The notes under the pieces are model-generated. The model was given only the letters and a program-made list of their open reading frames with translations, had not been told where the DNA came from and ran no database searches. Below, piece after piece: positions 39,637-43,062 of a DNA stretch of 64,000 bases (position 1 is the first letter of the stretch; each line of letters begins with the position of its first letter). Position numbers and translations under genes: made by a program. The stretch spans positions 2,666,001 through 2,730,000 of the forward strand of contig AP009389.1 in the NCBI GenBank assembly GCA_000010565.1. The letters run 5' to 3'. This DNA is from Pelotomaculum thermopropionicum SI. GTDB taxonomy: Bacteria > Bacillota > Desulfotomaculia > Desulfotomaculales > Pelotomaculaceae.

Positions 39637-40437
39637 TTAATAGGTGAAAGCAACGTTGCCGATGATCCGGCTTAAAGGCCTGGACCACAGCCACGGGTTG
39701 TCTACGTAAGTGGCAAAGAAGTAAACCGCCCCGTTGGTGGGGTCCCATCCTCTCAGCGCGTCTGCGGCCGCCATTATGGATTCGGTGCTCGGACGGACGT
39801 TTATCCATCCGTTCATAACGGGCTCAAACTGGTAGGTGCCGTCCTCGTACTGGTAGATGACCTCCGGAATCGAATCGGGAAAGCCGGGGTCTTCAACCCG
39901 GTTTAGCACCACGGCCCCCACCGCCACTTTGCCCTCATAAGGCTCTGCATCCGCCTCGGCCGTTATCAGCCTGGCCAGCAGGTCAAATTCGGCCAGGCTC
40001 GGCCTTTTAAAGCCGCCCCTGCTCACTTCCGGCAACTGCCGCCACACTGCCTCGCCTGAACTTGCAGGTATGTACAGCACCATACCGGGGTAAATTTGCG
40101 GGCCGGTTAAACCGTTTGCCCACATGATTTCCTGGTAGCCCATGCCGAATTTCTGCCCAATCAGGTAAAGGCTGTCCCCCGTCCGGACGGTATAATAGGT
40201 TGAACTTCTCTTCGCCCCGCTTTCCGGAATGTAGAGCTGCTGGCCCGGGTAAATCATTGAATCCCAGATGCCGTTTGCCTCCATCAGCGAATCTAAAGAA
40301 ACGCCGTAAGCGCGGCTGATAGTAAAAAGGCTTTCTCCCGGCGAAACATAGTGGACTGCGGCCTGGGCCCCCACAGGCAGGACAAGCACCAAAAGCAAAA
40401 CGAAAAGCCCCATAAAAAAACGGGTAACCTGAAACAT
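39637..40437 (-). CDS. LysM-SleB-type cell-wall hydrolase
   Basis: This 266-residue exported hydrolase has a signal peptide at residues 1-27 (FMGLFVLLLVLVLPVGAQA). LysM 1 (HYVSPGESLFTISRAYGVSL) and LysM 2 (YTVRTGDSLYLIGQKFGMGY) bind peptidoglycan. A SleB/CwlJ-type hydrolase domain at ~150-266 has LLARLITAEADAEPYEGKVA with the catalytic glutamate, and ends in GNVAFTY. It could act in spore-cortex lysis or in wall growth. It is preceded by a c-di-AMP riboswitch, matching the known control of cell-wall hydrolases in Firmicutes. ATG follows AAAGGAGGGG, just outside the riboswitch. Confidence 0.9.
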   Translation of the reverse strand: MFQVTRFFMGLFVLLLVLVLPVGAQAAVHYVSPGESLFTISRAYGVSLDSLMEANGIWDSMIYPGQQLYIPESGAKRSSTYYTVRTGDSLYLIGQKFGMGYQEIMWANGLTGPQIYPGMVLYIPASSGEAVWRQLPEVSRGGFKRPSLAEFDLLARLITAEADAEPYEGKVAVGAVVLNRVEDPGFPDSIPEVIYQYEDGTYQFEPVMNGWINVRPSTESIMAAADALRGWDPTNGAVYFFATYVDNPWLWSRPLSRIIGNVAFTY

Positions 40438-40452
40438 ATAAAACCCCTCCTT

Positions 40453-40660
40453 TGGCCTCCGAGGTTAGTTGAAGGGTTCGGGTTAGAGGGTACCCTACGG
40501 TTTCAGAACCGGCTGCCATAGGCAGGAAGCCTGATTCCTGCCGGAATTTGCCTCGCAAACCCGCTAAGGCGGCTTACGGCTTAACGGCTTCCGGCTTCTG
40601 AATCCGATTCACCCCAAAAGGTATTGTCCCCCGTACCCCGGCTTGTCCGGGGATTCGGCC
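40453..40660 (-). promoter_or_regulatory. c-di-AMP (ydaO/yuaA) riboswitch
   Basis: On the minus strand the leader of the LysM/SleB gene contains the conserved blocks of this class: CCCCGG...CCGGGG with GGGGGACAATAC, then GGGGTGAATC, and the 3' part GTAGGGTACCC followed by GAACCC and AACTAACCTCGGAGGC. Between the blocks is an expanded stem region (about 100 bases, 40500-40600) with repeated AAGCCG words. The ribosome site AAAGGAGGGG starts directly after the last conserved block, so control could act on translation; I see no intrinsic terminator. Confidence 0.9.
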
Positions 40661-40670
40661 TTTTTGTACA

Positions 40671-41893: not shown

Positions 41894-41925
41894 AATTAAA
41901 AAGGGAGTTGTATTAACAACTCCCT
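41894..41925 (-). terminator. Intrinsic terminator of the DUF3800/structured RNA transcript
   Basis: On the minus strand AGGGAGTTG-TTAATA-CAACTCCCT is a perfect nine-base stem followed by TTTTTAATTT. Confidence 0.85.
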
Positions 41926-42037
41926 AAACTCTTGGTGCCTCCGGGCTGGCTATCTTATAGATAGCTTATGCCTTTAGTGTTGTGGCACAGTTGCCGGAGG
42001 TCTTACCCAAAACTTTGATCAAACTTTGTTCAAAGTT
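41894..42037 (-). ncRNA. Candidate structured RNA downstream of the DUF3800 gene
   Basis: On the minus strand the 3' region of the DUF3800 gene can fold as a three-way junction. P1 is CCTCCGG/CCGGAGG (42000-41994 with 41944-41938), P2 is TGCC/GGCA closing an 11-base loop, and P3 is GCTATCT/AGATAGC with a 3-base loop. It is preceded by an AACTTTG/CAAAGTT stem with an extra CAAAGTT repeat (42037-42009) and followed by a strong terminator. RNA motifs associated with DUF3800 genes have been reported by comparative genomics; whether this is one of them needs an Rfam search. It could be a separate small RNA or a 3' UTR element. Confidence 0.5.
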
Positions 42038-42074
42038 ATTCTAACATGGAATACGCATCGCAGTCAAATGTTAT

Positions 42075-42719
42075 TTATTTGCCAAAACCGGTAATTGGAA
42101 ATTTTAGTCTCTTTTTGACAAGCCTCCAGATAAAAGGCGAATATAAGTCAGTATTAGGGTAATTCTCTCTGCCCCATAATGCATTACAGATAAAATCAGC
42201 CGCCTGGATTTCAAAGAAATGTTGGGAATCTAGGTATTTAACACTCACATATGTCTGCTTCCTTAGTCCAAAATTTAGTTTAATTGCAATGTAATCTTCA
42301 AAAGAATTCAATGAGCCAACTTTTAAAGATTTATTGTCTATAGTAAAGTTAAGTTCAGTAAAATTATTTGTACTTCTAATATATCTAGCAACTAGACCAA
42401 GTTGGTAATTATAAAACCTATTATAATTACTCTCAAGCAGATTATAGTCTAAGTGGTTTTTATCAACTACTATATAATAAATATCTATATTTTCTTTGGC
42501 TAACTTCCTTATAATATAATCTTTTGCAATACTGGGGCAATTATTAGCTTTAATTTCTGGGAGTGCTGAAAGGCTGGGAAACTGTTCTCTAACATCTTTT
42601 ACAGCTCTTCTCATAACAGCTCGAATTCTGTATTGGTTCTGTGTCACATAACCGCCAATTACAAAATATCTTTCAGTATTTCTATCCCAATTCCCAGATT
42701 CATCAAAAATTAAATTCAT
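42075..42719 (-). CDS. DUF3800 protein (RNase H-like fold)
   Basis: This protein of 214 residues has the acidic motif set of the DUF3800 family: LIFDESGNW at the start followed by FVIGGYV, EIKANN, TIDNKS and, near the C-terminus, FEIQAADFICNALWG. The spacing of D, E, D and D residues suggests a metal-dependent nuclease-like site. Family members are found with mobile elements and defence loci, and function is mostly unknown. ATG at 42719 follows GAGAGG. It is more AT-rich than its neighbours, stands alone between a tRNA-Thr and RNase HI-like gene, and is followed by a structured RNA candidate. Confidence 0.82.
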   Translation of the reverse strand: MNLIFDESGNWDRNTERYFVIGGYVTQNQYRIRAVMRRAVKDVREQFPSLSALPEIKANNCPSIAKDYIIRKLAKENIDIYYIVVDKNHLDYNLLESNYNRFYNYQLGLVARYIRSTNNFTELNFTIDNKSLKVGSLNSFEDYIAIKLNFGLRKQTYVSVKYLDSQHFFEIQAADFICNALWGRENYPNTDLYSPFIWRLVKKRLKFPITGFGK

Positions 42720-42987: not shown

Positions 42988-43062
42988 TGGAGCCGATGGC
43001 GGGATTCGAACCCGCGACCTGCGCATTACGAGTGCGCTGCTCTACCCCTGAGCCACACCGGC
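42988..43062 (-). tRNA. tRNA-Thr (anticodon CGT)
   Basis: The minus strand gives a full cloverleaf: acceptor GCCGGTG with CATCGGC, D arm GCTC/GAGC, anticodon loop CTCGTAA (CGT, reading ACG), T arm GCGGG-TTCGAAT-CCCGC, and an encoded CCA. It borders the DUF3800 gene, so it could mark an integration site. Confidence 0.95.

Follow-up and report, generated by a model that had tools for sequence, protein, structure and literature searches.

A DUF3800 protein with a predicted RNase HII-like fold and its neighbouring three-way-junction RNA in Pelotomaculum thermopropionicum, a possible phage-carried module

What is the structured RNA that lies just behind a DUF3800 gene in Pelotomaculum thermopropionicum SI, and does it work together with the protein? 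Comparative genomics has brought to light several RNAs associated with DUF3800, and to our knowledge none has a known function. The window, by which we mean the whole stretch of DNA analysed, is 64,000 nucleotides long and corresponds to positions 2666001–2730000 of the single 3,025,375-bp contig. The initial annotation had placed a DUF3800 gene before three nested stems and a perfect 9-bp terminator on the same strand, and had proposed that protein and RNA form a two-part system. The gene is intact, and the stems and the terminator are all in the sequence. Behind the DUF3800 stop follow, in this order, a promoter-like site, the CAAAGTT repeat, the RNA core and the 9-bp terminator with its T run:

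42988–43062 (−): tRNA-Thr (CGT), upstream of the cassette
42075–42719 (−): DUF3800 gene, intact, 214 aa, PF12686 E 4.8e-14
42038–42067 (−): probable RNA promoter between the gene stop and the RNA (TTGACT 42062–42067, 18-bp spacer, TAGAAT 42038–42043)
42011–42037 (−): inverted repeat AACTTTG-AA-CAAAGTT with a third CAAAGTT, which runs from the −10 box up to the edge of the core
41927–42015 (−): three-way-junction RNA core (P1a, GUAA internal loop, P1b, P2, UAA joining strand, P3), from the match to model R1 and the covariation of the family
41902–41924 (−): intrinsic terminator with a 9-bp perfect stem, followed by a T run (TTTTT) at 41898–41902

The three stems are P1b (CCTCCGG 41994–42000 with CCGGAGG 41938–41944), P2 (TGCC 41984–41987 with GGCA 41969–41972) and P3 (GCTATCT 41959–41965 with AGATAGC 41949–41955). 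An outer stem, P1a, at about 42007–42014 with 41928–41935, closes the structure; this stem and the GUAA internal loop are parts of the RNA that the initial annotation had not named. A 167-nt stretch folds at −52.9 kcal/mol, compared with −33 ± 3.7 in shuffled sequences (z −5.4, 0/200), and the promoter-like site of the RNA was equalled by none of 100 shuffles. The AACTTTG/CAAAGTT repeat, which had been taken for a further stem of the RNA, starts immediately after the −10 box of the likely promoter and is absent from the relatives in the family comparison, and for these two reasons we leave it out of the RNA. That starting point makes a role as DNA operator or leader likelier than one as a structural stem. 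Many relatives have a terminator in the matching position.

The structure was assessed with alignment A4, which holds 21 relatives and in which N placeholders in some rows keep the P1b bulge in register, and with the covariance model R1, made from 21 relatives. The window was purposely left out of both, because the first alignment (A2), which was built with no placeholders and with no structure yet imposed, had set the GUAA of the window one column off. R1 finds the window RNA at 41927–42015 (−) with 58.7 bits (E 1.6e-13 over 252 kb), while the next-best match in an unfiltered search of 8 kb of the window scores 9.1 bits. In A4, 93% of the cells are paired in the named structure, and changes on both sides occur in 20 of the 30 pairs. 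The double-change cells number 140, as against 51 in shuffles (0/500), and the covariation is 0.61 against 0.24, with slid structures giving 0.07–0.18. Compensatory changes are found in A2 at all 13 of the 13 RNAalifold pairs, and a larger alignment that includes the window and was fitted to the model (A5) has 251 double-change cells against 85. The three-way junction is thus recovered by a model made without the window, and the covariation test among homologues, which had been set beforehand, was passed. The conserved unpaired parts are the GUAA between P1a and P1b and the UAA between P2 and P3.

R1 also finds divergent members of the family 3′ of DUF3800 genes in Fusobacterium (6e-7), Ligilactobacillus (1.8e-6), two Bacilli/Erysipelotrichaceae MAGs (1e-9, 4e-6), satellites of Streptococcus and, weakly, Listeria phage PSA (0.014). 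A scan of the window and the homologues with Rfam 15, which had been suggested as a check, matched no family as this RNA, the DUF3800 motifs included. Eleven such motifs were reportedly described in 2017; the comparison with them was made through Rfam only, where DUF3800-I was the one motif whose presence was checked. In the Bacilli loci L014, L018, L021 and L042, a conserved TCACCCA stretch follows the first RNA copy immediately on its 3′ side, between the RNA and its terminator.

The 214-aa protein scores 53.7 bits against PF12686, for which the curated cut-off is 21, and is a member of DUF3800. A sequence search of solved structures gave no significant relative, and no PADLOC-DB model matched the window protein. 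When the AlphaFold2 model (pLDDT 89.7) was used in a structural search, the best matches were all RNase HII, H2 or H3, well above the unrelated rows, with RNase HII 1eke as the top match (Z 12.8, rmsd 3.1 Å over 164 residues). Residues D6, E7, S8, G9, E55, K57, D128, Q172 and D175 are invariant in 39 homologues, so that the conserved acidic residues of a putative RNase HII-like active site (D6, E7, D128 and D175, and also E55) accompany the predicted fold. The DESG motif on strand 1 stands in what we take to be the register of the DE/DEAG motif of RNase HII. The predicted model agrees with the nuclease-like protein first envisaged, and the DUF3800 protein is probably an RNA-cutting, RNase HII-like nuclease. 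A prediction published earlier had also given DUF3800 an RNase H fold (PMC10910872).

Is the RNA tied to the protein? Full-length homologues of the protein occur in Paenibacillus, Fusobacterium and Ligilactobacillus. A scan of genome contigs with the window protein as single sequence gave no match, and a search with a four-sequence alignment gave 29 loci; three further homologue loci are on viral contigs, and others are in Listeria phages and streptococcal satellite phages. The same RNA lies 3′ of most homologues, and in 17 genomes or records it was found at the DUF3800 locus only. A search with the RNA alone in 399 Bacilli and 391 Clostridia genomes (790) gave three new genomes, in all three of which it adjoins DUF3800, and a scan of the viral contigs with the RNA pattern gave one contig (L094), also with DUF3800 adjacent. 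All RNA copies found outside the streptococcal satellite phages adjoin a DUF3800 gene. Nine Bacilli loci (L004/L013, L014, L015, L018, L021, L026, L042, L043 and L072) and likewise viral contig L094 have two close copies, the second of which differs in P1a and P3.

In most loci the RNA follows the gene on the same strand, as a cis-acting 3′ element for the stability or autoregulation of the DUF3800 mRNA would. However, at one locus in a Clostridia genome (L074), the sole one of its kind, RNA and gene are convergent on opposite strands, and the RNA has its own promoter-like site (TTGATT-17-TATAAT) 8 nt before P1a. A promoter-like site is present in 24 of 24 gaps between gene and RNA (combined p 9e-10 versus shuffles), the RNA lies 5′ of the gene in DUF3800-I, and orphan copies exist. 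The opposite-strand, upstream and orphan copies led us to reject a cis UTR element, and there is no preferential pairing with the RNA's own gene, so we give a cis-acting role almost no credence. Antisense control of the gene was rejected as well, since cognate RNA–mRNA pairing is no better than non-cognate. Because order and strand vary (3′ on the same strand, 3′ on the opposite strand with a promoter-like site, 5′ in DUF3800-I), the RNA behaves as a gene and not as a UTR; most probably it is a gene of its own that is linked to DUF3800.

Neither R1 nor Rfam found the RNA in ten DUF3800 loci that belong to a single Clostridia clade (L030–L037, L040 and L041) or in the outgroup L011. The clade sits within the RNA-bearing tree, and its proteins are without the C-terminal FPxxxFGK end. 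This joint absence of the end and the RNA suggests, from comparison of sequences, that the protein C-terminus may take part in RNA recognition. It also bears on the idea that the RNA is an independent small RNA of phages or satellites, a regulator or an aid to replication or packaging, which is merely the neighbour of DUF3800. The promoter-like site and the orphan RNA of 15 satellite records would fit such an RNA, but RNA and gene stay linked outside phage genomes, in Bacillota as well as Fusobacteriota and on either strand, in DUF3800-I they are linked with the RNA on the other side of the gene, and the RNA is missing together with the C-terminal end of the protein. We think this explanation distinctly unlikely.

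Some neighbouring features were noted in individual loci. In L074 (1399–2737), DUF3800 stands directly after an ORF that by eye is smpB-like, a possible integration region. Paenibacillus cellulosilyticus (L013, 4075–5241, −) encodes a second, divergent DUF3800-like protein of 388 aa that contains DESGN, about 0.6 kb beyond the RNA pair and on the opposite strand. On a Ligilactobacillus salivarius plasmid (L006, 1790–2243, −), three tandem copies of the salivarius-1 RNA (RF03030) lie beside the DUF3800–RNA cassette.

The streptococcal satellites show how gene and RNA are lost. The RNA is present in 33 records and the intact gene in 20, of which 18 are among the 33; the other two, Javan276 and Javan529, have a divergent RNA copy, so that the RNA is found with 20 of 20 genes. 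The intact gene is missing in 15 of the 33 RNA-bearing records, and four of the six gene-less records examined keep just its last 19–75 codons, directly before an intact RNA. RNA without the gene is therefore common, and the gene without RNA was never seen in the 20 gene-bearing records. This asymmetric loss is the pattern expected of an antitoxin and favours such a role. However, the RNA borders on a slot in which cargo can be exchanged, and hence it may have outlasted such exchange through linkage alone; furthermore, the independent gene losses are few, with about five remnant types. Six satellites (L095–L100: Javan744, 723, 727, 724, 175 and 591) have other cargo in the slot before the orphan RNA, including DnaQ-type exonucleases (L098, L099) and a lipoprotein-like ORF (L095).

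A different DUF3800 gene, in Legionella pneumophila, was essential by Tn-seq (PMC7811196), a result that sits poorly with DUF3800 in the part of the toxin. That this gene scored as essential and strain-specific would suit the reverse arrangement, in which the RNA is the harmful partner and DUF3800 is the antidote that processes or destroys it. The persistence of the RNA without the protein in many satellites is, however, unexpected of a toxic RNA, and the reverse arrangement seems to us very improbable.

The mobile origin first proposed from AT-rich composition and the tRNA-Thr gene holds up. The G+C content of the DUF3800 CDS is 31%, compared with 49% for the window. This is the sole DUF3800 gene of the genome, a search of the 112 further genomes of its class gave no homologue of the protein, and the interval between tRNA-Thr and rnh holds other DNA in relatives. 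No att-like repeats were found around the tRNA-Thr cassette. Horizontal acquisition of the cassette is supported by the low G+C, the lack of matches in the 112 genomes and the different content of that interval in relatives. Elsewhere the cassette comes after holin and endolysin (amidase/glucosaminidase) genes or is flanked by genes for a CI-type repressor and an integrase; positions after lysis genes and between repressor and integrase are the usual places of phage cargo. The protein–RNA pair looks like a phage-carried module, cargo of prophages or satellites.

Two observations concern the surroundings. In the window at 40440–40670 (−), a c-di-AMP riboswitch (RF00379, 69.6 bits) lies directly before an ORF at 39637–40437 for a LysM/cell-wall hydrolase-like protein. 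A contig filed as Listeria phage LM 4-11-1 (L102, OR846895.1), which looks like host DNA misfiled as phage, carries at 670–1100 a CRISPR array with the repeat GTTTTGGTAGCATTCAAAATAACATAGCTCTAAAAC, and one of its spacers exactly matches the 3′ end of the RNA gene of phage PSA.

What might such a module do? We suggest, with slightly less than even confidence, a two-gene module of phages and satellites in which an RNase HII-fold nuclease, the DUF3800 protein, is bound and restrained by a shape-specific RNA. The three-way-junction RNA of 87 nt would be transcribed separately and steadily from its own promoter, and the nuclease would recognise it by its shape. Within a complex, the RNA would keep the nuclease inactive or targeted, in the manner of an antitoxin. 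An infection, or the loss of the element, would disturb this equilibrium and release the nuclease, which could result in superinfection exclusion or addiction. Transcription of the RNA, its binding and inhibition of the protein, toxicity and defence are all steps that we infer. Points against an antitoxin-like module are that the RNA lies 3′ of the gene, whereas it is 5′ in type III loci, and that no PADLOC-DB model recognised the protein.

Alternatively, the RNA may be a required cofactor, a guide or a scaffold, with DUF3800 and RNA together forming an active nuclease particle, as in RNase H-fold RNA-directed nucleases. The RNase H fold, the co-inheritance of RNA and protein and the presence of DUF3800 proteins alongside Cas12a2 and in some type VI-F loci (PMC10910872, PMC12669027) are consistent with this. 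On the other hand, the only variable unpaired part of the RNA, and so the only guide-like stretch, is the short P2 loop of 7–11 nt, and satellites keep the RNA without the gene; we consider a cofactor possible, if rather unlikely. Restraint or arming of the nuclease by the RNA is the best reading of the cargo module. Of the two-part system proposed at the outset, the linkage of the RNA with DUF3800 stands, and for the RNA an antitoxin-like part seems somewhat likelier than that of a cofactor.

More tentatively than the restrained-nuclease module itself, we put forward that these loci may be a new class of protein–RNA toxin–antitoxin or anti-phage system, in which an RNase HII-fold nuclease is under the control of a three-way-junction RNA and which unites DUF3800-I with the cargo of temperate phages and satellites. 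The RNA family is outside Rfam, has strong covariation and has a core in common with DUF3800-I; through these loci, RNA-controlled phage cargo would be linked to a nuclease fold of the RNase H2 type. A 214-aa protein and an RNA of 87 nt make compact natural systems in culturable species, and satellites that have kept the RNA and lost the protein are further ones, so that the function of the group is directly testable.

How does the locus compare with known systems? Type III toxin–antitoxin loci (ToxIN, CptIN and TenpIN) likewise combine a nuclease with an adjacent structured RNA, sometimes repeated, and are phage-related. They have RNA repeats upstream, one promoter, a pseudoknot and a toxin that probably belongs to another family (PMC5086642), whereas the window locus has its RNA downstream with its own promoter-like site, a three-way junction and an RNase HII fold. 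The type III layout, with upstream repeats, a shared promoter and a terminator between, is not that of the window locus, which by layout is not a type III system. As for ToxN, CptN and TenpN, the matches of the window protein are to DUF3800 and to the RNase HII fold, and a missing match to ToxN would be no proof. RNase HII and RNase H2 share the fold (Z 12.8) and the DE-[SA]-G motif on strand 1; DUF3800 differs in its identity of about 14%, in having no C-terminal RNase HII domain, in its private RNA and in being an accessory mobile gene. The DUF3800 accessory proteins of CRISPR types V-A2 and VI-F are of the same family and have the RNase H fold (PMC10910872, PMC12669027), but they come with TPR domains and CRISPR arrays, whereas the window locus has a 214-aa protein, a dedicated RNA and no CRISPR.

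The nearest likeness is DUF3800-I. Its model, RF02969 (gathering score 44.2 bits), has no match in the window stretch at E up to 10 or in 13 related loci at E up to 1, and by score the window RNA is not a member. The top match of R1 in L088 and L089 is nevertheless the DUF3800-I RNA, weakly (E 0.007 and 0.21), and the printed consensus shares with A4 a three-way-junction core with GUAA/CC and the UAA joining strand. The common core is P1a, a UAA(CC) internal loop, P1b, P2, UAA and P3, with no J3/1, and both RNAs have a U-rich P3 pentaloop, linkage to DUF3800 and a terminator. DUF3800-I differs by a 5′ hairpin, a short P1b and P2 and, in L089 and L092, a place on the 5′ side of its gene that immediately follows a lysin-like gene, whereas the window family is 3′ of the gene, has a longer P1b and P2 and often occurs in two copies. 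From these shared and distinct features, we read the window RNA family and DUF3800-I as probable sister families of one group.
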